Assembly: GCA_030835405.1 (NCBI GenBank)
Contig: JAURPG010000090.1
Span: 1 to 43,128, forward strand
DNA length: 43,128 nucleotides
From: Gammaproteobacteria bacterium
GTDB taxonomy: Bacteria > Pseudomonadota > Gammaproteobacteria > Eutrophobiales > Eutrophobiaceae
Direction of reading: 5' to 3'
The position numbers and the translations under genes were made by a program. This document shows positions 8,778 through 35,845 of this stretch, in pieces. The notes beneath the pieces are model-generated. The model did not search any database. It was not told where the DNA came from and saw nothing but the letters and a program-made list of their open reading frames with translations. How positions within the stretch are numbered: the first letter of the stretch is position 1; each line of letters begins with the position of its first letter.

Positions 8778-10018
8778 AGACTGAACACACAGATGTGGTT
8801 ATTGCAGGTGGGGGGTTAACAGGTTACACCCTGGCTATATTGCTTGCACGTGGCGGGGTCTCATCGATTGTTGTTGAAGAGAGTGCGACGTTGGGTGGAG
8901 CGCCTGTCGTGCCTTGTGATCCCAGGGCTTTGTCAATCACACCCGGGACACAGCGGGTTCTGGATAGTATTGATGTATGGCAGTTACTGCCACCAGAGAA
9001 GGTAGGAAGGTTTGATAAAATCCATATCTGGGACGGGACAGGAGGTGAAGAAGTCCAGTTTGACTGCAGTGAAATTTGTTCACCGGTATTAGGGTATATC
9101 GTTGAGCAATCTGTGCTCCAGGCCGCACTTGCCAGGCAGGCAAAGGGCAGAGCCGGGATAGAGCTGCTTATGAATAATACAGTTATTGGATTCACGGAGG
9201 ATGCAGACAGCATAGTTTGTAAGCTGGCGGACGGCAGGATAATCAAATCCAGCTTGCTGGTGGGCGCAGACGGTATCAATTCTAGAATCAGGGATCTGGC
9301 GGGGATTGCTCAGGAGCGTATTGATTACCATCAAAAGGCTGTTGCCTGTATTATAGAAACCCAGCTTCCCCATAAAAATATTGCCCGACAACGGTTTTTA
9401 AAAGACGGTCCCGTTGCATTCTTGCCTTTGCCAGATGCAAACCGATGTGGCGTTGTGTGGTCAAACGGTCGTGATACTGCTGATGACTTATTGGCGTTGG
9501 ATGACCAGACATTCTGTGAGCAGTTAGAGACAGCATTTGAAGCCAGATTGGGTAAAGTTCTGGGTTGTGAATCAAGAGCAGTCTTTAATTTACAGCGGTC
9601 ACGGGTATTAAATTATTTCAACGGGCATTGTGTGCTGGTAGGTGATGCGGCCCATACCGTACACCCCATGGCCGGCCAGGGTGCAAATATGGGTTTAACA
9701 GATGCCGCCGTTTTGTCTGAATTGATACTTCATGCGAGATCAACTGGCAGGGACATTGCGTCCAGGCAGTTATTACGAAAATATGAGCGATGGCGAAAAA
9801 CTGAAAATAATAAAATGACATTAATACTGGAAGTATTAAAAAATATTTATGAAGATAACAGCCCATCGGTTTCCCTGCTGAGAGGAAATGGCATGATGTT
9901 GTTAAATCGGACTACTGTTATTAAAAATAAAATTATGAAATATGCAATGGGAATAACTGGTGATGTACCTGCTATTGTCTCCAGTTCCCTGTTTGAGGAA
10001 TTTAGTAATGCAGGATGA
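8774..10018 (+). CDS. ubiI: Ubiquinone-pathway FAD monooxygenase, UbiI/VisC type
   Basis: A second flavin hydroxylase of the same family, 414 residues, most probably the C5 hydroxylase of ubiquinone synthesis. It has [13 protein letters not shown] at the N terminus, [26 protein letters not shown] near residue 163, [15 protein letters not shown] in the middle and [21 protein letters not shown] near 290. The order pepP-ubiH-visC is the standard gammaproteobacterial operon, and that is the main reason for choosing UbiI over UbiF, since the family members are hard to separate by motif alone. It starts inside the end of ubiH and its last 11 bases overlap the glnS start. Confidence 0.82.
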
Positions 10019-11687
10019 CAAGCAACCGGTACAGACAAACTTTATACGTAAGATCATTGAATCTGATCTTGATAATAATCCGAATTTTCCGGAAATCATA
10101 ACCCGGTTCCCTCCCGAACCGAATGGATACCTGCACATCGGCCATGCCAAATCTATCTGCCTGAATTTTGGACTGGCAAAAGAGTTTGGCGGCTTGTGTA
10201 ATCTACGTTTCGATGATACCAATCCGGAGAAAGAAAACACAGAATACGTCGAATCCATAAAACAGGATGTGAAATGGTTGGGGTATGATTGGGAAGACAG
10301 ACTTTATTTTGCATCAGATTATTTTCAGAAATTATATGATTTTGCTGTTGAACTCATAAAGCATGACAAGGCATATGTGGATGGCCTGAGCGGTGAAGAA
10401 ATCCATGAATATCGCGGCACCTTAACCGAACCGGGTAAGAACAGCCCATGGCGCAATCGGGAGATTCAGGAGAATCTTGATCTGTTCGAGCGAATGAGAA
10501 ATGGTGAGTTCGATGAGGGTAGCTATGTTTTAAGGGCAAAAATCGATATGCGTTCGCCAAACATAAACATGCGTGACCCGGTGTTATATCGCATCAGAAA
10601 AGCGGCTCACCATCGTACTGGAGATAAGTGGAAGATTTATCCCATGTACGATTATGCCCATTGTCTGTCTGATGCGTTGGAATATATAACACATTCCGTC
10701 TGTACCCTTGAGTTTGAAGACCACAGGGCTTTATATGATTGGATTATTGATAATCTCCAGACGCCATCACGTCCATATCAGTATGAATTTGCAAGATTGA
10801 ACCTTGATTATACTGTTCTGAGTAAGCGGAAATTGATTAGCCTGGTAAATGAAGGGTTTGTCAATGGTTGGGATGACCCCCGCATGCCGACCATTTCCGG
10901 ATTCAGGCGGCGTGGCTTTACCTCATCATCCATCCGAAAATTCTGCGAGGTGATTGGGGTTACCAAAAATGATACCCGAATCGATCCGGTAGTAATTGAA
11001 ACGGTATTGCGCGATGAGTTGGGAGAAACCACACAGCGCAGGATGGCGGTTTTAGACCCGCTCAAAGTCGTTATTGAAAATTATCCGGATACCACAGAGC
11101 AGCTTGAGGCCATGAATCATCCGCAAAAACCAGAAATGGGAACTCGTAAAATACCTTTTTCAAAAACGGTATATATCGAAAAAGATGATTTTATGGAAGA
11201 TGCCCCAAAGAAGTTTTTTAGGTTATCGCCAGGCAGGGAAGTGAGGTTGAAGTATGCCTATCTCATTACCTGCACCGATGTCATTAAAAATGACCAGGGT
11301 GAAATTATCGAATTGAGATGCAATTATGACCCGGATTCCCGGGGTGGGAATTCCCCGGACGGCAGAAAGGTCAAAGGCACGATTCATTGGGTCGCAGAGG
11401 ATGGGGCTGTAGAGGCAGAGGTGCGATTATTTGATCGGATGTTCACATCGGCCATGCCCGATAAGGAAGAAGACTGGCGCGCAGATTTTAATGACGATTC
11501 CAAACAGATAAACAATACCAGCCTGCTGGAGCCTTCATTAAAGACGGCTGATAAGGCTGAGCGTTTCCAGTTTGAGCGATTAGGATACTTCTGTGCAGAC
11601 AGCGTAGATCACAGCAGTGAGTCACCGGTATTTAATCGTATTGTGACTTTGAGGGACACCTGGGCGAAGGTGAGTAAAGCAAGGTGA
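10008..11687 (+). CDS. glnS: Glutaminyl-tRNA synthetase
   Basis: GlnS charges tRNA-Gln directly with glutamine. It is a class I synthetase: [15 protein letters not shown] near residue 35 holds the HIGH motif, and VLSKRKL near 270 is the KMSKS-equivalent. The C-terminal beta-barrel anticodon-binding domain follows ([34 protein letters not shown]). I start it at ATG 10008 ([12 protein letters not shown]), preceded by GAGGAA, which gives 559 residues, close to the E. coli length. An upstream in-frame ATG at 9960 lies inside ubiI and is unlikely. Having GlnS suggests that the GatCAB route is not needed for glutamine. Confidence 0.97.
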
Positions 11688-11721
11688 GGAGTGAGGGGTA
11701 AGGCTTAGGGGTAACAGTCTT

Positions 11722-12507
11722 TTAAATGTTCCTGCCATAAAATATCTCCCGCATTTCTGTGAAAAGACTTTGCTCGATCTGTTCGCGACGTTCGACTTCC
11801 AGGTCCTCGGCATTAAGCTCAAACAGGTAGTTATTTAGGTCAAGATCATTCAACATCATTTTGGTGTGAAATACGTTTTCCTGGTAGATGTTAACGTCAA
11901 TCATCTGGTAGCGATCCTGCGTTTCCTGGTCAATATAGTTTTGGATGGAATTTATTTCATGATCTATAAAGTGCTTGTTTCCTGAGACATCTCGGGTGAA
12001 TCCACGTACCCGGTAATCAACGATAACAATATCGGATTCAAAACTGTGTATCAGGAAGTTCAGGGCCTTGAGTGGTGATATCATTCCACAGGTGCTGACA
12101 TCGATATCTACCCTGAAGGTGCTGATTCCATTATCCGGGTGGCTTTCGGGGTAGGTATGGACTGTTAAATGGCTCTTATCCAGGTGGGCGACCACCGCCT
12201 CCGGGGAAGGGCCTGGTTCTTCCTCATTATTGATATTAGGCATGGAAGATGTCTCTTCTGAAATGAGTACAGTTACGCTGGCGCCCAACGGGTCGTAATC
12301 CGCCTTGGCTATATTGAGAATATTTGCACCAATAATATTGGCAACATCTTCAAGGATCTGTGTCAATCTTTCTGCATTGTAGACCTCATCTATATAATCC
12401 ATATACTGTTTATTTTGGGCTTCAGAATATGCATAGCAGACATCATAGATATTAAAGCTGAGGGTTTTGGTCAGATTGTTAAATCCGTGCAGGCGAATTT
12501 TTTCCAT
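11722..12507 (-). CDS. speD: S-adenosylmethionine decarboxylase proenzyme (class 1A, enteric type)
   Basis: SpeD supplies decarboxylated SAM, the aminopropyl donor for spermidine. The 261-residue proenzyme cleaves itself to make its pyruvoyl cofactor. The cleavage site is Lys111-Ser112 in [16 protein letters not shown], at the same numbering as the E. coli enzyme, and the catalytic Cys140 is in [13 protein letters not shown]. This is the long enteric-type form, not the short thermophile/Bacillus type. It converges on glnS and is divergent from purC. No speE lies beside it. It draws on the SAM made by the metK product further along the window. Confidence 0.96.
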
Positions 12508-24947: not shown

Positions 24948-25799
24948 ATGTCTGCACAAGCGAAGTTTGAAAAAAAATTCAGTTTTGAATTCTTCCCGCC
25001 ACGCTCAGATGATACCCAACGTGTGCTGAATGAAGCCCAACAACACCTGGGTAGTCTTGGACCTGATTTTTTTTCTGTTACCTACGGGGCAGGTGGTAGT
25101 GACAGAGAAAAGACCCTGGAGACGGCTATCTCTGTACGGGATAATACTTCTATTCCAGTTGCGCCCCATATCTCATGCATTAATAGCAACCGTGATGAGA
25201 TTGCCGGGGTACTGGACCAGTACCAGGAACTGGAGTTTAAGCACCTGGTGGTGATTCGCGGTGATAGGGCAGAGGAAGGAGAAAATATAGGCGATTTTAA
25301 TTTTGCCAGTGAACTGGTGGAATTTATCAGGAGCCGGACCGGGGATTATTTTGAGATTGATGTCGCCTGTTATCCCGAGTTTCATCCTGAATCCATTAAT
25401 GCAAGGACGGAGCTGGAAAATTTTAAAAAGAAGGTTGATGCTGGCGCCAACGGCGCCATTACACAGTATTTCTATAATCCCGGCGCCTATTTCAGGTTCA
25501 TTGAGGACTGTGAAAAATTGAGTATTGATCTGCCAATTGTCCCCGGCATAATGCCAATTACTAACAGGGACCAACTGGTAAGGTTTTCACAAAGCTGTGG
25601 CGCAGAAATCCCACGCTGGATCCTTACCCGGCTGGAATCCTATGGTGATGATCTGGAGTCTATCCGCAATTTTGGCCTGGATGTGGTTAGCCAACTGTGT
25701 CAGGCACTACTGGATTTTGGTGCCCCGGGATTACATATCTATTCCATGAACAGACATGCCGCTGGCGAGAAAATCTGGCAAAACCTGGGGATCAGATAG
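24948..25799 (+). CDS. metF: 5,10-methylenetetrahydrofolate reductase
   Basis: A flavoprotein that reduces methylene-THF to methyl-THF for remethylation of homocysteine. The 283-residue protein has FSFEFFPPRSD at the N terminus (catalytic Glu in FEFFPP), FFSVTYGAGGS near residue 41, APHISCINSNRDEI near 72, HLVVIRGDR near 99, ITQYFYNP near 166 and GIMPITNRDQLVRF near 200. It lies 48 bases after ahcY on the same strand and probably shares the riboswitch-controlled transcript, which would link methyl supply to SAH level. Confidence 0.96.
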   Translation: MSAQAKFEKKFSFEFFPPRSDDTQRVLNEAQQHLGSLGPDFFSVTYGAGGSDREKTLETAISVRDNTSIPVAPHISCINSNRDEIAGVLDQYQELEFKHLVVIRGDRAEEGENIGDFNFASELVEFIRSRTGDYFEIDVACYPEFHPESINARTELENFKKKVDAGANGAITQYFYNPGAYFRFIEDCEKLSIDLPIVPGIMPITNRDQLVRFSQSCGAEIPRWILTRLESYGDDLESIRNFGLDVVSQLCQALLDFGAPGLHIYSMNRHAAGEKIWQNLGIR

Positions 25800-25953: not shown

Positions 25954-26286
25954 ATGAAGAACCAGGTACTATTTGTAGATGATGACCCACTCATCGTGGA
26001 ATCGTTGTCCATTGCCCTGGATGATGAGTTTACTGTTCATGCTGCGGAAAACCGGGGGCAGGCCAAAAAATTACTAAATCGGATCCAGCAGAAGCTGTCC
26101 ATTGCCCTGGTTGATTTAGGTCTGCCTCCACACCCCCATCACCCTGATGAAGGTTTCAGATTAATAGAAGAGCTGGTGACTTATAATCCGAACATGAAAA
26201 TTCTGGTGTTGTCAGGTCAGAATGTAGAACTTCCAGCATCAGGACAAGGATTATTTGTTCCCGGTAGCCAAATAATTTTTGAATAA
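25954..26286 (+). pseudogene. Truncated response-regulator receiver, PrsR-like
   Basis: The 110-residue frame is the front of a receiver domain. The acidic pocket VDDDP, the phospho-acceptor Asp in VDLGLPP and the signalling Ser in VLSGQN are present. The text LGLPP....EEGF-like (LGLPPHPHHPDEGFRL) is typical of PrsR, the sigma-54-dependent regulator associated with PEP-CTERM exopolysaccharide loci. After SGQN the similarity stops. The fifth strand with its Lys-Pro is missing, as are any AAA+ and DNA-binding domains. A different frame near 26253 reads KDYLFPVAK, vaguely like the lost DYLxKPV, so a frameshift is plausible. I take it as the remnant of a longer regulator; a stand-alone receiver is less likely because Lys is lost. 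Confidence 0.65.
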
Positions 26287-26352
26287 GCGATTTCATATTA
26301 ATGATAAGTGGTTCAATGTATATTACATTATTATGGTTTTTCCGGTGAAATT

Positions 26353-27126
26353 ATGATGCCAGTAAATAAAACAACCACGATTGCATATTATACCTTCAGG
26401 GAAGCGACCCAGAATCAATTATTCGTATTGACATTAATCGGCCTGGTCTGTCTGCTTGGCGTGGCTGAATTTGTGGGTGACCTGGCAATATCGGAAACCC
26501 GGCAATTTCAGATCTCTCTGCTGGCCAATATTGGCAGATGGTTTCTGGTCATTACGGTTGCCTTGTTTGTCATCACCAGCATGATTAGAGAATTTAATGA
26601 TAAAGGTTGTGATCTAATATTATCATTGCCCGTTTCAAAACCTACTTATTATTTTGGCAAGTTATTGGGTTATTTTCTTCTAGGTTTGGTGATCGCACTG
26701 TCTTTATCGGTCCTGATGTTATTGTATGCGGATACTCAGGCATTAATGATTTGGTTGATATCGCTTGTTTGTGAGGCTGTTATTGTTATGGCGTTAAGCA
26801 TGTTATGCCTGTTCACCTTCAGCAATATCACAATCGCATTTATCGCCACCATTAGTTTTTATATGCTTTCAAGATCAATAGATGCCATACAACTGATTAG
26901 TGTTTCTCCAATATTGGAGACGAACACTATCTCCCAGGAATTCATGACATCATTGGTTAATCTCATCGCGTTTGTTCTTCCAGACCTCAGCAGGTTTACC
27001 CGTACTGAATGGCTGGTATATGGAGTTAATATTGATGAAATGGGATTTGTTCTGGTGCAAACGGCCATCTATTTGACATTACTGGTTGCTGCCGGGTTGT
27101 TTGATTTATCACGAAAGGAATTCTAG
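26353..27126 (+). CDS. ABC-2 type transporter permease
   Basis: A 257-residue integral membrane protein with six predicted helices: near residues 27-45, 64-83, 106-127, 136-155, 157-180 and 232-250. The arrangement is that of ABC-2 exporters of the NatB/YhaP kind, with AYYTFREATQNQLF as the amphipathic N-terminal helix and EFNDKGCDLILSLPVSKPTYYFGKLLGY as the cytoplasmic coupling region between helices 2 and 3. I use ATG 26353 rather than GTG 26308. No ATPase is adjacent. The likely partner is the ATPase at 30315-31037, beyond the broken cyclase and the pilin gene. The substrate is unknown. Confidence 0.8.
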   Translation: MMPVNKTTTIAYYTFREATQNQLFVLTLIGLVCLLGVAEFVGDLAISETRQFQISLLANIGRWFLVITVALFVITSMIREFNDKGCDLILSLPVSKPTYYFGKLLGYFLLGLVIALSLSVLMLLYADTQALMIWLISLVCEAVIVMALSMLCLFTFSNITIAFIATISFYMLSRSIDAIQLISVSPILETNTISQEFMTSLVNLIAFVLPDLSRFTRTEWLVYGVNIDEMGFVLVQTAIYLTLLVAAGLFDLSRKEF

Positions 27127-27143
27127 TAGTCGCCGTTATAAAG

Positions 27144-27881
27144 ATGAAGTTTTATATACTTAATAGTATCTCCAGGGAACGGCCTGTTAGTGTTGTTCCA
27201 AAGTGGGTCATGGCAATACTTGGCATTGCTATCATGGCCCAGCTGGTATTTCACGCTAATACTACCCGGTTAAATATCCGCGAAACTCTAATACCTGAAG
27301 CCCCTTCGCAGGCTGCATTGAATGTACTCAGTCTCGGTGATGAGATTGGCATATCAAAATTTATAATGCTTTGGTTGCAGGGGTTTGATCATCAACCCGG
27401 GATCAGTATTCCTTTTTCACGACTAGACTATGATAGTTTAATTAGCTGGTTGGACAGGGTGTTACAACTGGATCAGGATAGTCATTATGCGCTGCTTTCT
27501 GCATCACGTATTTATAGCGAAGTCCCAGATACAGATAAGCAGAGGAAAATTCTTGAATTTGTTTATGAAAAGTTTCTGGAAAAGCCGGACCAACGTTGGG
27601 TATGGATGGCACATGCTGTCTACGTTGCCAGGCACAAGGTGAAAGACAACCAGTTGGCGTTAAGATATGCCCGGCAATTACGAATTCACACCACCAGCAG
27701 TGTGGTCCCAAATTGGGCGAGACAACTGGAGTTATTTGTCTATGAAGATCTGGGAGAGCTGGAAACAGCGCAGATATTACTAGGGGGGTTGATTGAAAGT
27801 GGAGAAATAACGGATGAAAATGAAATTAACTTCCTGCTATCGAGGTTAGCTATCAATGAAGAAGAACCCCAGAAAAACTAA
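27144..27881 (+). CDS. Membrane-anchored TPR-like protein, function unknown
   Basis: The 245-residue product has one membrane helix near residues 22-40 (WVMAILGIAIMAQLVFHA). The rest is predicted helical hairpins resembling degenerate TPR repeats (for example LDRVLQLDQDSHYALLSASRIYSEV and LALRYARQLRIHTT, with WARQLELFVYEDLGELETA near 196). It follows the permease by 17 bases on the same strand, so the two are co-expressed, and the repeats may hold a periplasmic partner of the exporter. No named family is recognised. A pilin-like gene and an exporter ATPase lie further along. Confidence 0.7.
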   Translation: MKFYILNSISRERPVSVVPKWVMAILGIAIMAQLVFHANTTRLNIRETLIPEAPSQAALNVLSLGDEIGISKFIMLWLQGFDHQPGISIPFSRLDYDSLISWLDRVLQLDQDSHYALLSASRIYSEVPDTDKQRKILEFVYEKFLEKPDQRWVWMAHAVYVARHKVKDNQLALRYARQLRIHTTSSVVPNWARQLELFVYEDLGELETAQILLGGLIESGEITDENEINFLLSRLAINEEEPQKN

Positions 27882-27887
27882 AATCTA

Positions 27888-29101
27888 TTAGACAATTGAG
27901 ACTTCCATTTTCTTAATCATCGCAGAGTAGTAACCATCCTTTGGCCTCATTGTTCTTAATGTCTTAAATTCTTTTATCGCTGTTTCAGAATCTGAATTAT
28001 TGTAAGCCTCTAATGCTCGTTTATGCTTTAATAACCAATTATCCATATCTGCATTTGAGTCTGATACACTGCATAATGGTTGAAATAACCGGGTCGCGTT
28101 ATGTTTTCCCTTCACATGTACAGTATCTATCTCTCTGAATAAGATATCTTGGCATTCATTCCTGGTTGACTCACTTACCAATATAGGAACCTCATATCTT
28201 CTGGTTAAAGTCTCTATGCGTGATGCAACATTTACCGAATCGCCAATGACCGTATAGGCTATCCGGTGTTAATACCCACACCCATTTTAGGTCCCGGCCA
28301 ACCTTTCTTAATGAAACCATCTGATAATTCAGCGATCATTTGTATCATATCAAGTGAAGCCAGAACTGCATTTTGAGCATGGTCTTGTTGGGCAATGGGA
28401 GCACCCCAGAAAGCCATGATGGAATCACCGATGTACTTGTCTATGGTGCCCCCATAACGGAACAGAATCTCTGTCATCGCATCGAAATACTCATTCAGCA
28501 ATAAAGATAGCTGTTTGGGGTTTAATTGTTCAGCCACATTGGAAAAGTCCTGCAGGTCACAGAAAAATACTGTCATGATTCTTGATTCACCGTTCATGTT
28601 GACCTGGTCGGGATGTTTGCTGGTTTTGTTGATAATTTCCGACGGAACGAATTGACCAAAGGCCTGAATGATTTTGGTTTTCGAGTGAGTTTCAACAAAA
28701 TAGATTAACAGTGCATTCATGGAAAACAATACCAGGATAATTAACAGGCTATATTCCATGGGTAAAATCGTTTGTACCTGTTTGACAGTGATGTACAGGT
28801 ATAGATGCGGAAGGATGAGCAGAAAATTCATAATTGCGGCAATCATCGGTGTCACGACAGGTAATAAAAAAGACAATAACAGTCCGGTAAATATCATCAT
28901 TAAAAACGAGAGGGATACGCTGCTAACGGGTTCATTTATGATATGGGCTAATAATGCAGTGATGACCTGGCCATTAAAATTTAAATTTGGGCCATTGCGT
29001 AAATGAATATCGAGCGCGCCTGTACCATTTAGAAGATAAAAGAGAAAAATGATTAGCAGCAGAATGGTCTGGGTTTTATTTTGAAATAGTTTTTCTAACA
29101 C
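27888..29101 (-). pseudogene. CHASE2-type adenylate/guanylate cyclase, broken by deletions
   Basis: Class III cyclases make cAMP or cGMP. The 5' part (29101-28259, 280 residues) has an N-terminal membrane helix, three further helices near residues 63-140 and the start of the catalytic domain: FGQFVPSEI, VFFCDLQDFS (first metal Asp), and GDSIMAFWGAP (second metal Asp). It stops at GVGINTG. The remainder continues in another frame from about 28262 (RIAYTVIGDSVNVASRIE, with the transition-state Asn and Arg) to 27888. The stretch expected between NTG and RIAYT, roughly a dozen residues containing VGxMGS, is missing, and the join shifts frame. The extracytoplasmic CHASE2 region is also far too short. 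Not functional as it stands. Confidence 0.85.
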
Positions 29102-29346
29102 AGCTCAATATTTGAGGTGGTTTATTTACCCTGCAGTTTAACAGCCATGTTTGTACGGAAAAAACGATAATAACCATTTACAATCAGGAAATTAGGAATA
29201 ATCAACATACGCGCAACTAGGCACTATAGTTTTAAAATTTATCGTCAAATGTGACATAAGGTGTTGAAGTTTCGACACATTTGATAAAAAACTGACATTT
29301 CAGGCGATATTGTAGAGATATATTTTATAAAAATATTATATTTATC

Positions 29347-29386
29347 ATATAGATAAATATATAGATAAATATATAGATAAATATAT
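29347..29386. repeat. 12-bp tandem repeat upstream of the pilin promoter
   Basis: ATATAGATAAAT is present three times without a break (29347-29382), followed by a partial fourth copy. Its spacing puts each unit slightly more than one helical turn apart. It ends directly at the promoter-like element at 29386. The 343-base gap 29102-29444 otherwise holds no gene. A short reverse-strand frame rich in Tyr, Ile and Leu across it is only the translation of this repeat. Confidence 0.85.
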
Positions 29387-29402
29387 TGGCATATAATCTG
29401 CA
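29386..29402 (+). promoter_or_regulatory. Sigma-54-like promoter of the pilin gene (overlapping a TATAAT box)
   Basis: TTGGCATATAATCTGCA has GG (29388-29389) and GC (29400-29401) exactly ten bases apart, the rule for the -24/-12 elements of RpoN promoters. Pilin genes are often under RpoN. The same stretch contains a perfect TATAAT (29392-29397), so a sigma-70 reading is possible; no good -35 box lies 17 bases before it. The start of transcription would be near 29413 and the pilin ATG is at 29445. Confidence 0.6.
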
Positions 29403-29444
29403 TATTATTAGAGTAATAACAATCACACATGCGAGGAAAATAAT

Positions 29445-30209
29445 ATGAATAATAAAAAACAATCAGGTTTTACCCTGGTAGAAATTGCAATCGTGCTGGT
29501 AGTGATTGGCCTTCTATTGGGCGGGATATTAAAGGGACAACAGCTCATTAATAGTGCCCGGGTGCGTAACCTGGCGGATCAGAACTCTGGTGTCCAGGCC
29601 GCTTATTATGGTTTTGTAGACCGGTTCCGTAATTTACCTGGTGATATGGCACCTGCCGCTGCCTGTGCCGCCGTTGGCGCAGCAGTTGATACGGCATGTG
29701 GCGGTACGCCAACTATCGGTGGTGACGGTGACGGCAGGATTGAAAATGTTGCCGAGGCTGGCGCAGTATGGGCACACCTTTCGGTTGCTGGATTTATCAC
29801 AGGCACCTATTCGGGTGACCCAGCCAATGAGGCTGCTTACCGGGATACCAGTGTGGCAGCAGGACAGATACCACCAAATGCCTTCCAGGGGCCGATTTTG
29901 CTTGGTCATATGGATTACTATGTGGACGGTGCTTTAGCTTCTCAGGGAACAGTCACCCGATTGGCCTATTCGTTTGGCGGTAATATTCCAGTACCCCTGT
30001 TACGTGACCTGGACCAGAAGCTGGATGATGGCATTGCCGGTACCGGTGTGTTGCGTTCTGCAATGGGTGCGGCAACCGCCCCGACAACGGGATTCGATGC
30101 CATTGTTGGCTATACCAACTCTCCGGAATGTCTGGCCGATGTCTCTTACATTGCTAACTGGAATGTTGATAGTGCCAACCCGGAGTGTAACGCTATCTTC
30201 CTGTATTAA
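29445..30209 (+). CDS. Type IV pilin-like protein (prepilin-type N terminus)
   Basis: The product is 254 residues. The leader MNNKKQSG is cut before Phe9 by prepilin peptidase, and the mature protein begins FTLVEIAIVLVVIGLLLGG, with the Glu at mature position 5 that is needed for assembly. RFRNLPGDMAP near residue 56 places it in a group of long pseudopilins common in methylotrophs and nitrifiers. The globular part is Gly/Ala rich with four cysteines and DGDGRIENVAEAG. A GAGGA ribosome-binding site and a sigma-54-like promoter precede it, and a strong terminator follows, so it is a single-gene transcript. It sits within the exporter genes but no other pilus genes are near. Confidence 0.88.
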   Translation: MNNKKQSGFTLVEIAIVLVVIGLLLGGILKGQQLINSARVRNLADQNSGVQAAYYGFVDRFRNLPGDMAPAAACAAVGAAVDTACGGTPTIGGDGDGRIENVAEAGAVWAHLSVAGFITGTYSGDPANEAAYRDTSVAAGQIPPNAFQGPILLGHMDYYVDGALASQGTVTRLAYSFGGNIPVPLLRDLDQKLDDGIAGTGVLRSAMGAATAPTTGFDAIVGYTNSPECLADVSYIANWNVDSANPECNAIFLY

Positions 30210-30230
30210 AAGGCAAGTATGTTGAACCTG

Positions 30231-30262
30231 ATAAGGGCCCGCTTTGCGGGCCCTTATTTTTT
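30231..30262 (+). terminator. Rho-independent terminator after the pilin gene
   Basis: A perfect 12-bp stem, ATAAGGGCCCGC (30231-30242) with GCGGGCCCTTAT (30246-30257), has a TTT loop and a run of T on its 3' side. It begins 21 bases after the pilin stop. It separates the pilin transcript from the ABC ATPase gene at 30315. Confidence 0.94.
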
Positions 30263-30314
30263 GGAATAAGATAAAATATTATTACCTCCAGCATGGATAA
30301 CACAGATAAAGTTT

Positions 30315-31037
30315 ATGGACAACTCACCCTGTATTGAAATTAATAATGTCAGTAAACGTTATGGAAGCCAGAAAATACTGGATGGAGTTGACCTGGTTGT
30401 TAATGATAATGAAATCCATGGGTTGGTGGGAATCAATGGTGCGGGCAAGACAACACTGATTAAGTGTCTACTGGATTTGGTCTCGATTAATTCCGGTGAG
30501 ATTAAACTTTCAGGGATCAATAGTTCTGATAATGCTTCACGGAATTCACTGGCATTTCTGCCGGAAAAATTCACCCCGCCTTATTATTTGTCCGGCGAGG
30601 ATTTTCTGAAATATATATTAAAGCTTTACAATGTCAGCTACGATGAGCAGTTGATAGATTCTGTATTGTTGTCACTGGACTTTAATCCGCAATATTTATC
30701 CAAGCCGGTCCGGCAGCTTTCTAAAGGCATGACCCAGAAGCTTGGTTTGACTGCCTGCTTCCTCAGCAACAAAAATTTACTTGTGCTTGATGAACCCATG
30801 AGCGGCCTCGACCCCAGGGCCAGGGCCTATTTGAAGCAGCATATTCTTGATATGAAAAACAAGTCGGTAACAATGTTTGTATGTACTCACTTATTGACAG
30901 ACATTGAAGCCTTCTGCGATAAGGTCTCCATATTACATAATGGCTCTATCCACTTTACAGGGACCCCGGAGGAATGTTGCAGGCAATACAACACCACAGA
31001 TTTTGAGAGTGCATATCTTGCCTGTGTGGGCGCGTGA
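30315..31037 (+). CDS. ABC transporter ATP-binding protein
   Basis: A 240-residue nucleotide-binding domain. Walker A is GINGAGKTT (residues 39-47), the Q-loop region has FLPEKF where most have a Gln-Pro type sequence (LPE is usual for ABC-2 exporters of the Nat/CcmA kind), the signature is LSKGMTQK (135-142), Walker B is LLVLDEPMSGLDP and the switch His is His192 in CTHLL. The protein belongs with ABC-2 permeases. The only permease in view is at 26353-27126, so the two probably form one exporter although they are separated. Downstream of the ATPase is a repeat cluster. Confidence 0.88.
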   Translation: MDNSPCIEINNVSKRYGSQKILDGVDLVVNDNEIHGLVGINGAGKTTLIKCLLDLVSINSGEIKLSGINSSDNASRNSLAFLPEKFTPPYYLSGEDFLKYILKLYNVSYDEQLIDSVLLSLDFNPQYLSKPVRQLSKGMTQKLGLTACFLSNKNLLVLDEPMSGLDPRARAYLKQHILDMKNKSVTMFVCTHLLTDIEAFCDKVSILHNGSIHFTGTPEECCRQYNTTDFESAYLACVGA

Positions 31038-31050
31038 CATAGAAAAGATT

Positions 31051-31230
31051 AGACAGGATTTACATGATATATCTATTGGCTCTTTTTGAATCAAGTAAAT
31101 CTTGTTAATCCTATCCATTTTTTAAGTATCCTATTAAAAATATTAATGCCAGACATTTGGCTTAAATTGTCTGAAGTTGTAACGAAGCATTATAGATACG
31201 TCCTGTTTATCCTGTTAATCCTGTCTATTC
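31051..31230. repeat. Dispersed repeat cluster downstream of the ABC ATPase gene
   Basis: A forward-type unit AGACAGGATTTACATGAT at 31051 is followed by the complementary form AAATCTTGTTAATCCTATCC at 31098-31116, and then by TCCTGTTTATCCTGTTAATC at 31201, ending CTGTCTATT near 31230. The arms again pair imperfectly. They lie in the 239-base gap between the ATPase and DUF4124 genes. A TACAAT box just before 31277 may be the promoter of the next gene. Confidence 0.65.
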
Positions 31231-31276
31231 TTTTATCTATTCACCTGAAAGCGATAAATCGTCTACAATAGAAAGT

Positions 31277-31783
31277 ATGAAAATACTATTAATCATCCTG
31301 CCACTGCTATTAATTAGCCTCTTCGCCCAGGCCCGTATGTATCAATGGGTAGATCCGGATACCAATACCACACAATTATCTGGCAAGCCGCCATATTGGT
31401 ATCGCAACGGTGAGCCCGGGCCCAGGGTTATTATATTCGATAATGGCAAGGTCATAGATGACACGGGTATCCCTGTCTCAGATGTTGAGAATGAAAAATT
31501 TCGGCAACAGGCGTTGGTCATCGTGGAGCAGGACAGGTTGTCAGCTATAGAAAAACTCAGGCAGGCGGAGCTGCAAAAGGCGGCATTTGGAACAGAAGAA
31601 GAGGATGAAGAGCCGATGAAAATTATTCTCGATCCAGTTGTGGAAGAACGTGAGATTGAAGAAGGCAGACAGGTTGAAGCGGATGATTCACAAATAGAAC
31701 AACAGATGCGGGAATTACTTGAACAGTATGAGGCCCTTAAGACTCAAAGCGCTAAAGATGTTGTAGGTTCGTCTAACCAGTAA
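31277..31783 (+). CDS. DUF4124 domain protein, exported
   Basis: A 168-residue product with a signal peptide (MKILLIILPLLLISLFAQA, cut before RMYQW). The mature N terminus MYQWVDPDTNTTQLSGKPP is the typical DUF4124 strand pattern (YKWVDENG...). In this case the domain is longer, with WYRNGEPGPRV. The C-terminal half is acidic and helical with coiled-coil tendency (EQDRLSAIEKLRQAELQK and QIEQQMRELLEQYEAL). The function of DUF4124 is not known; such proteins lie in the envelope. The broken kinase gene follows on the opposite strand. Confidence 0.8.
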   Translation: MKILLIILPLLLISLFAQARMYQWVDPDTNTTQLSGKPPYWYRNGEPGPRVIIFDNGKVIDDTGIPVSDVENEKFRQQALVIVEQDRLSAIEKLRQAELQKAAFGTEEEDEEPMKIILDPVVEEREIEEGRQVEADDSQIEQQMRELLEQYEALKTQSAKDVVGSSNQ

Positions 31784-31798
31784 CCGTTTGACCTGAGA

Positions 31799-32250
31799 CT
31801 AACCGGAAAAAAACGATTTTATAGTATTTACAAACCCTGACTGTTTATTCTGCACAAATTGTCTGAGGCTAAGTAAGGCCTGATTTTTTGGATCAATCCT
31901 TAAGCCTATATCAACATAACTAGCGGTTTTCTCCAGTTCATTTTTAACCATGGCCTGTTCTGCCAGAACAGCATATTGGTTGGCAATATTGTAGATACCA
32001 TGGAGATATAGAACATGTTATTGGCAACGCCAATATCATATATGGTAATAATATTTGGATGGGACAGTGAGGCAATAATCCTGCCTTCCGCCATAAATCG
32101 CTCAATTAAGTCTTTTGATTCATCTGCATCGACATTATCGAGGATCTTAAGGCAGACAGAACGGGTGAGTGATTCCTGTGTGGCCAGGTATACCGTGGCC
32201 ATACCACCCTTTCCAATTTCATTTTTTATTATATAGCCAGGAATCTCCAT
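31799..32250 (-). pseudogene. Ser/Thr protein kinase with TPR tail, core deleted
   Basis: The 5' part from ATG 32250 is the N-lobe of a Hanks-type kinase: the glycine loop GKGGMATVYLA, the lysine in VCLKIL, the helix-C Glu in FMAEGRII and HPNIITIYDIG. It reaches MFYISM at about 32000. There similarity stops, and in another frame the same strand reads GIYNIANQYAVLAEQAMV and on through VDIGLRIDPKNQALLSL to a stop at 31799, clearly the final TPR repeats of a longer protein. The HRD catalytic loop, DFG and the rest are absent. An internal deletion has fused the two ends out of frame. The gene is dead. Confidence 0.82.
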
Positions 32251-32389: not shown

Positions 32390-32848
32390 TCAGTCCAGAG
32401 ACTCTGCTGCCCGGTGTTTTGCCTTGATATAGTTAGCATGGGAGACGTATAACAAATCAGCAATCTTGCGGATAAAATACTCCTCATACTTATCGATAAC
32501 ATTGTCTGCTACAGCAACACGCCAGAGTAATTCTATGACTGTTACTTTCTCTTCTGCATTTAGTTCATCATTCACAGTCCTGGTAAAATCATGCAGTGAA
32601 ATAGCATGATTGACTTCTACACGTGCGGTCTCAATGATGTCCTGGATTTCATCCTGAGCCAGATGAAAATTTAACGACATGGTCTTCTCAATAACCTTAA
32701 TTTCATCTTCATCAATACCCGAATCTGCTAGGGCAATCTCCAGCATGAGCACGGCCGCACAAAGCTCCAGGGTATGTGCTCTGGAACTGTTCTCGATTTC
32801 ACCATAACCCAGATGTTGGCCAAAAAATTCAGTTAATGAATTGAACAT
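32390..32848 (-). CDS. TerB-family protein
   Basis: A 152-residue helical cytoplasmic protein. LCAAVLMLEIALADSGIDEDEI near residue 29 and LLWRVAVADNVIDKYEEYFI near 104 are the two acidic, metal-binding-like repeats of the TerB/DjlA-like domain, each ending in a D-x-x-I/E pattern. This form is frequent in gammaproteobacteria apart from tellurite operons, and a role in tellurite resistance should not be assumed. It lies 9 bases downstream of hspQ on the same strand, so it is the second gene of that transcript. Confidence 0.85.
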   Translation of the reverse strand: MFNSLTEFFGQHLGYGEIENSSRAHTLELCAAVLMLEIALADSGIDEDEIKVIEKTMSLNFHLAQDEIQDIIETARVEVNHAISLHDFTRTVNDELNAEEKVTVIELLWRVAVADNVIDKYEEYFIRKIADLLYVSHANYIKAKHRAAESLD

Positions 32849-32857
32849 AGATATTGC

Positions 32858-33217
32858 TTAATTTTTTTGCCAGGAATGGTTGATATATTTGCCGCCTTGA
32901 AAATCATCAAAGTAGGTTAATATCATTGGATGGTCAATGGAATCTATGGATGTATCTGCCCGGAGGTTGCGTTCCGCGACATAGGTTTCATACAGTGAAT
33001 CATTTACCAATACCTTATACCAGGGGGCATTTTTGGGAGGTTTCGACTTCGCCATTTTCTGGTACCATTCTTCAGATCCAAGATAGATCGGGTCTATATC
33101 AACTATGACCCCGCGATAATCGAACAATTTATGGGTGATCAGCTGGCCAATATCGAATTTTGCCTCTTTTGGCATCAATTCTTGAATTTGCATGTTGCTA
33201 TTATCACTACTTATCAT
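32858..33217 (-). CDS. hspQ: Heat shock protein HspQ (YccV-like)
   Basis: A 119-residue protein with the SH3-like beta fold of the YccV family. KFDIGQLITHKLFDYRGVIVDIDP near residue 20 is the family signature, followed by APWYKVLVNDSLYETYVAERNL near 63. HspQ is known to stimulate Lon and to bind hemimethylated DNA in E. coli. The N terminus has about 18 extra residues with two alternate ATGs (33217 and 33193), and the later one would give a length nearer to the usual 105. It is divergent from rsmE and precedes the TerB gene. Confidence 0.9.
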   Translation of the reverse strand: MISSDNSNMQIQELMPKEAKFDIGQLITHKLFDYRGVIVDIDPIYLGSEEWYQKMAKSKPPKNAPWYKVLVNDSLYETYVAERNLRADTSIDSIDHPMILTYFDDFQGGKYINHSWQKN

Positions 33218-35689: not shown

Positions 35690-35845
35690 TTAATGTGAGA
35701 TTGATGCTGCGGATGCAAAATGCGGGTCCTGAGACAGGGAGACCACTCTGGTCGTGATTTCTACCAACAGGATGATGACAAATACCATTGTGACGCCGCA
35801 AATATATGGTAAAAAAGCCCCCTGGTTGTATTTATTCTCATCCAT
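35690..35845 (-). CDS. Possible small single-helix membrane protein (51 residues)
   Basis: In the 545-base gap between gshA and argH, the reverse strand has an open frame from ATG 35845 to a TAA at 35690. Its product begins MDENKYNQGAFLPYICG, has one hydrophobic helix (VTMVFVIILLVEI) and a short polar tail ending ASISH. The composition is protein-like, but I see no clear ribosome-binding site. A 46-residue forward frame at 35427-35567 looks less convincing. Nothing else is recognised in the gap. Confidence 0.35.
   Translation of the reverse strand: MDENKYNQGAFLPYICGVTMVFVIILLVEITTRVVSLSQDPHFASAASISH

Follow-up and report, generated by a model that had tools for sequence, protein, structure and literature searches.

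The genes between positions 25954 and 32250 of contig JAURPG010000090.1 very probably represent, in identity as well as in history, the eroded remnant of a gene cluster for a type IV pilus of the mannose-sensitive haemagglutinin (MSHA) class that included an ATP-binding cassette (ABC) transporter of its own. The window, that is, the entire analysed stretch of 43,128 nucleotides, belongs to a gammaproteobacterial metagenome-assembled genome (MAG; GCA_030835405.1, order Eutrophobiales) of 2.8 Mb in 136 contigs, which is rated 100% complete. Downstream of metF (ending at 25799) and up to a TerB/HspQ-like pair, it encodes a receiver fragment, an ABC-2 permease, a protein with a single transmembrane segment and a tetratricopeptide repeat (TPR)-like domain, a cyclase (−), a prepilin, an ABC ATPase, a DUF4124-like secreted protein and a Ser/Thr kinase fragment (−) (Table 1). 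What was observed directly is which genes are present, their synteny, the scars of the deletions, the conservation of the promoter and the co-occurrence of the genes. The initial annotation had taken this locus for a stand-alone pilin/exporter module that had lost only its signalling genes. That description has to be abandoned: by synteny, the locus is the tail of an MSHA-class cluster, and the assembly genes disappeared in the same deletion as the response regulator and the histidine kinase.

The order-level comparison covered 53 genomes, 37 of which encode the TPR protein; by name, the relatives of the window are mostly gammaproteobacterial MAGs. These genomes share a common frame, SAHH-metF-response regulator-MshM-MshL-MshN-MshE-MshG-MshI-like-PilO-like-PilP-like-long pilin-like-minor pilin-histidine kinase (−)-permease-TPR protein-cyclase (−)-pilin-ATPase-DUF4124-kinase (−)-TerB-HspQ-rsmE-gshA, in which the names MshI, PilO and PilP reflect position and length rather than family matches. 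In some relatives, FecR-like and outer-membrane-like proteins are encoded between the ATPase and DUF4124 genes (L045, 15608-17409; the G050 region of L055). The complete set is found in a genome of the same genus, G009, split across two contigs: C7 carries SAHH-MetF-response regulator-MshM-MshL-MshN-MshE-MshG-MshI-PilO-PilP, two pilin-like genes and the histidine kinase, and C3 continues with permease-TPR-cyclase-pilin-ATPase-DUF4124-kinase. T2SSE, T2SSF and Secretin domains in the assembly genes of the relatives confirm that their locus encodes a pilus assembly machine. The MshL secretin of relative G050 matches the MSHA-type family TIGR02519 (250.7 bits against a cut-off of 250.2), and its MshE carries the cyclic di-GMP (c-di-GMP) motif NF053729 (57.4 bits, cut-off 38) along with PF05157. 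The published MSH model lists mshA, E, G, L and M as mandatory and names no ABC transporter (PMC6668835). Because both G009 and G050 carry mshE, mshG, mshL and mshM, the ancestral locus is assigned to the MSH class; none of the four is present at the window locus. The prepilins of the window and its relatives, which were compared with one another, carry the N-methylation motif. No MshE orthologue was found in the window genome, where the best matches are paralogues at 39% identity; the G009 orthologue is 83% identical. Thus, the earlier remark that pilus assembly genes are lacking nearby is accurate for the window, but they are lacking because they were deleted, being present in the relatives.

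The deletion left a legible scar. Immediately past the receiver domain, the reverse-strand translation reads MKSLIQKLFGYREQIILVLMLEVLHS, matching the N-terminal end of the histidine kinases of relatives, and runs directly into antisense receiver sequence; therefore, a single deletion fused regulator codon ~90 to histidine kinase codon ~26. The in-frame tail of the receiver, up to 26286, is antisense histidine kinase sequence. The fusion point lies at ~26221-26230 and, estimated from the G009 coordinates, ~17 kb is missing, comprising the AAA and DNA-binding domains of the regulator (a sigma-54-dependent protein of 463-484 aa in relatives), all of the assembly genes and the histidine kinase, the 5′ stub of which the initial annotation had overlooked. 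The cyclase differs from its G009 orthologue by an exact 37-bp gap at ~28262, which removes MMNVGNMGSKYR and leaves both flanks open in the expected frames, suggesting that the gene was lost recently. The Ser/Thr kinase gene lacks ~1 kb relative to the 482-aa G009 orthologue, and its codons 1-84 now run, in the wrong frame, into the final 63. The genes described at the outset as intact or broken are indeed so, and intact cyclase, Ser/Thr kinase, full-length regulator and histidine kinase genes occupy the same places in relatives. Damage is, however, not confined to the regulators, as had been proposed, given that the assembly machine is gone as well. Some of the names also require adjustment. 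The receiver is PrsR/NtrC-like, but PrsR (TIGR02915) membership was rejected, the intact orthologues scoring 340 and 353 bits against a cut-off of 502.6; the cyclase is a broken class III enzyme, but not of the CHASE2 type, as an intact relative shows a Guanylate_cyc domain only; and the DUF4124 gene is present and syntenic, but its family match falls below the gathering score. EmbRS of Rubrivivax was considered as the same two-component system and dismissed, since it belongs to a PEP-CTERM polysaccharide system.

The prepilin consists of a leader followed by GFTLVE, with two invariant Cys residues and an invariant C-terminal Tyr in the homologue alignment, and is likely the major pilin of the lost pilus. 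The sigma-54 box reported upstream of it proved to be conserved: 55 of the 71 distinct homologous regions contain one, compared with 6.4 expected from shuffles, mostly 38-55 nt before the start codon. Upstream of the permease gene, boxes occur in 9/69 regions versus 6.9 expected, but they are more frequent than expected upstream of the ATPase (18/59 versus 8.3) and TPR (27/86 versus 12.6) genes, so that the enrichment is not restricted to the pilin, yet is by far the strongest there. Because the presence of the histidine kinase tracks the pilin promoter (48/52 loci with the kinase, 1/13 without it) and intact regulators reside in the loci of relatives, past control by phosphorylation, as initially suggested, is well supported by these sequence comparisons. 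Any role of the cyclase and the Ser/Thr kinase, including control by cyclic nucleotides, would be deduced from their position alone. The window organism retains the sigma-54 box and RpoN but has lost the regulator and the kinase of the locus, and the pilin is therefore probably either silent or under another activator.

The permease, the ATPase and the membrane-anchored TPR-like protein bear out their first identification (Table 1). The ATPase has intact Walker A (GINGAGKT), signature (LSKGM) and Walker B (LVLDEP) motifs, its nearest counterparts among solved bacterial proteins are of the NosF type and, judging from synteny, it is the predicted partner of the permease. The TPR-like protein has a single N-terminal helix preceded by basic residues and followed by a helical domain; its AlphaFold model (pLDDT 86) places the transmembrane helix at residues 20-39, and TPR proteins dominate the top Foldseek matches, albeit weakly (best E-value 0.013). 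Because basic residues precede the helix (positive-inside rule), the TPR-like domain is probably periplasmic. PDB searches returned no match for the permease sequence and only one chance match for the TPR profile.

When 84,980 genomes were scanned using the TPR alignment, 190 relatives emerged, 80 of which were kept. These come from MAGs, nearly all labelled as beta- or gammaproteobacterial and one as Desulfobulbaceae. The parts do belong together, and the finding that would have spoken against this, a lack of clustering in other genomes, is clearly contradicted: the permease lies directly upstream of the TPR gene in 75/76 loci, a minor pilin is found upstream in 56/61 and the pilin downstream in 56/61, the ATPase is present in 37/55, the histidine kinase is on the opposite strand in 54/67, and MshE/G/I are located within 10 kb in 43/48 testable loci. 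The cyclase (22/63) and the Ser/Thr kinase (17/42) are lineage extras. In an even sample of 229 genomes from the class, the TPR protein was found in 36, the MshE orthologue in 44, and both in 33. Thus, 33 of the 36 genomes with the TPR protein, compared to 11 of 193 without it, carry the MshE orthologue (Fisher test, 6e-27; here, as in the comparison of the sigma-54 box with the histidine kinase, genomes or loci are treated as independent, uncorrected for relatedness), and 11 of the 44 MshE-bearing genomes lack the TPR protein. Among the environmental MAG contigs, L109 and L179 are labelled Klebsiella pneumoniae and Bordetella parapertussis, respectively. The label of L109 looks wrong because this is a contig of G009, from the same genus as the window, and that of L179, which carries the same pilus cluster, is doubtful.

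Loss of the locus is graded within the genus, from complete (G009) through a scar to nothing. In congener G007, a transposase cuts the regulator and only the kinase remains of the rest; G010 retains merely an 85-aa kinase remnant; and in G008, metF adjoins TerB, the locus being gone. In G048, from a third genus, a transposase is inserted in mshM, the TPR gene is split and MshE is lost as well. In G024, from another genus, metF adjoins the permease and only permease-TPR-pilin-ATPase are left, with no histidine kinase; a scan of the upstream regions found no sigma-54 box at this four-gene module. The corresponding locus (L070, 8312-11395) lost the machine, regulators, cyclase and kinase independently.

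In the complete system, the histidine kinase and sigma-54 response regulator would switch on the pilin promoter; the prepilin would be inserted into the membrane and then matured; and the ABC-2 permease, the ATPase and the membrane-anchored TPR protein would together handle the pilin at the inner membrane, by analogy with PilG/PilH/PilI of Myxococcus. Polymerisation of the pilin and its passage through the MshL secretin would fall to MshE, MshG and MshI, together with the PilO/PilP-like proteins, and c-di-GMP would provide an input to MshE. In the window organism, a single deletion took the output domain of the regulator, the sensor kinase and all of the assembly machine, and smaller deletions inactivated the cyclase and the Ser/Thr kinase. 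Presumably, the organism no longer makes a pilus of this type. A pilin-handling role for the transporter is favoured by the analogy, with moderate confidence, and such a device would probably aid the pilin in crossing or leaving the inner membrane.

Several observations weigh against this interpretation. The pilin model (pLDDT 66) is too poor to confirm the fold, and a fold search with it gave nothing usable; the likeness of the transporter to PilGHI is one of gene arrangement, so that its role is proposed by analogy; and the deletions were read from the assembly of a MAG. Decay of the retained genes is not demonstrated by the sequences, the branch to the window being only slightly longer than that to G009 (ratios of 1.14-1.22 for TPR, pilin, ATPase and DUF4124, against 0.96-1.04 for neighbouring genes). 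Furthermore, the module occurs without an MshE orthologue in the window, G024, G281, G282 and a few incomplete genomes, and because G024, G281 and G282 keep the permease-TPR-pilin-ATPase group under these circumstances, the group may serve an independent function. If the group worked by itself, the ABC device would handle an orphan pilin that is assembled by the remaining type IVa pilus (T4aP) machinery or type II secretion system (T2SS), or displayed in the membrane. We regard this as possible but on the unlikely side. All four genes are intact in the window, the pilin shows no change of its own at columns that are invariant elsewhere, and the genes persist not only beside MetF in G024 but also beside a PilU-like gene in G281; moreover, the window genome retains RpoN, one prepilin peptidase and, as named by eye, a T4aP-type PilB/PilC pair, minor pilins and a T2SS, and because of these remaining components another machine may still use the pilin. 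However, the group was wholly lost in three congeners, the TPR gene is broken in G048, another genome that lost MshE, and across the class the group is nearly always accompanied by MshE. The window TPR protein and permease show 4 and 3 private changes at invariant columns, respectively (ATPase, 1), the TPR count being the highest among 21 genomes. The window copy is mainly a relic or near-relic. Extending the idea of autonomy to MSHA-class pili at large, the four genes would form a self-sufficient pilin-handling device, conserved in beta- and gammaproteobacteria, that can outlive the pilus machine and then supplies an orphan pilin to the membrane surface or to a different type IV filament system, a speculative and rather doubtful proposition. 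In L146 of G281, the genome of which lacks an MshE orthologue, permease-TPR-pilin-ATPase (9224-12345) are located elsewhere, between the PilU-like gene and ntrBC-like genes.

The transporter could instead export a non-pilin cargo, such as a polysaccharide or a small pilus-linked adhesin, and be a regulatory neighbour only. The ABC-2 permease and the NosF/DrrA-like ATPase are of generic types and the permease has no close solved relative, but across beta- and gammaproteobacteria the transporter genes keep a constant order on either side of the pilin, and the fully read loci showed no biosynthetic genes in their midst, which makes this option quite unlikely. That the deletions are assembly or binning artefacts is highly improbable: the genome is fragmented and the evidence assembly-based, yet the MshE orthologue is nowhere in a genome rated complete, the junctions are coherent and all within a single contig, and the locus, or most of it, is likewise gone from three congeners.

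We return to the remnant of an MSHA-class cluster as the preferred interpretation and compare it with known systems. Like the MSHA pilus of Vibrio and Shewanella, the single locus of the relatives encodes MshM, MshL, MshN, MshE with the c-di-GMP motif, MshG, MshI-like protein, minor pilins and pilin, but it adds the ABC-2 transporter, the TPR protein, sigma-54 two-component control, the cyclase and the Ser/Thr kinase. Type IV pili are thought to obtain their subunits through the general Sec/YidC route and prepilin peptidase, and it is mainly in Myxococcus that the handling of pilin has been linked to an ABC transporter dedicated to it. There, PilG, PilH and PilI are described as an ABC exporter complex co-operonic with pilA (PMC3546991) and are reported to be indispensable for moving pilin across the inner membrane (PMC3724824). 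The window and its relatives display the same type of arrangement as M. xanthus pilAGHI and pilSR, in that the pilin gene has genes for an ABC ATPase, an ABC permease and an accessory membrane protein as neighbours and the locus includes a histidine kinase/response regulator pair, but the Myxococcus locus is of the T4aP type and its order is pilA-G-H-I. We found no description of an ABC transporter in MSHA loci in the open-access literature, which does not show that none exists. The fixed position of the ABC-2 transporter and TPR genes beside the pilin in most sampled MSHA-class loci makes the need of some pili for an ABC transporter testable outside Myxococcus. Other resemblances are partial. 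The regulator and histidine kinase resemble PrsR and PrsK of the XrtA/PEP-CTERM system, and MshM a PEP-CTERM ATPase (207 bits), but all three score below the family cut-offs; no exosortase gene was noticed in the window, although no search was aimed at it. NosDFY likewise combines a NosF-like ATPase and an ABC-2 permease with a probable periplasmic partner, but here the partner is TPR-like, not NosD, and the context is a pilus, not nitrous oxide reductase.

Table 1. Coordinates and supporting evidence for the elements of the remnant pilus locus in the window
Feature	Position	Strand	Evidence
Response regulator 5′ remnant, ~90 codons, receiver domain only	25954..26225	+	PF00072, E 1.7e-8; full-length orthologues in L076, L077 and same-genus G009
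Histidine kinase 5′ stub, ~25 codons, MKSLIQKLFGYREQIILVLMLEVLHS	~26221..26296	−	Translation is the N-terminus of relatives' histidine kinases
ABC-2 type permease, at least 5 hydrophobic segments	26353..27126	+	PF12698 weak, below cut-off; hydropathy; orthologues in nearly all relatives
Single-transmembrane protein with helical TPR-like domain	27144..27881	+	Alignment; AlphaFold model; Foldseek; in 37/53 order genomes
Membrane class III nucleotide cyclase, pseudogene	27888..29101	−	PF00211; alignment with intact G009 orthologue
Sigma-54 −24/−12 promoter element, TTGGCATATAATCTGCA	29386..29402	+	42 nt upstream of pilin start; spacing correct
Type IV prepilin	29445..30209	+	PF07963 above cut-off; alignment of homologues
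ABC ATPase	30315..31037	+	PF00005, 77.5 bits; synteny
Secreted protein, weak DUF4124 similarity	31277..31783	+	PF13511, 18.2 bits against cut-off 22; syntenic orthologues in order
PknB-like Ser/Thr kinase, pseudogene	31799..32250	−	N-terminal 84 codons 31999-32250, C-terminal 63 codons 31799-31990; intact orthologues in L045, L047, L109

Beyond the kinase fragment, the TerB-domain and HspQ-like pair (32390-33217, −) keeps its position across the order, even in genomes without the pilus locus. Farther downstream, the interval from gshA to argH contains 39 codons left over from a LytS-type histidine kinase (35723-35839, −; 51% identity, E-value 1.7e-7), at a position where relatives carry a complete LytS/LytTR pair. 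Elsewhere in the window genome, the LytTR regulator is matched by generic receivers only, none of them an orthologue. Thus, a second two-component system, 3 kb from the pilus remnant, was lost in a separate event.

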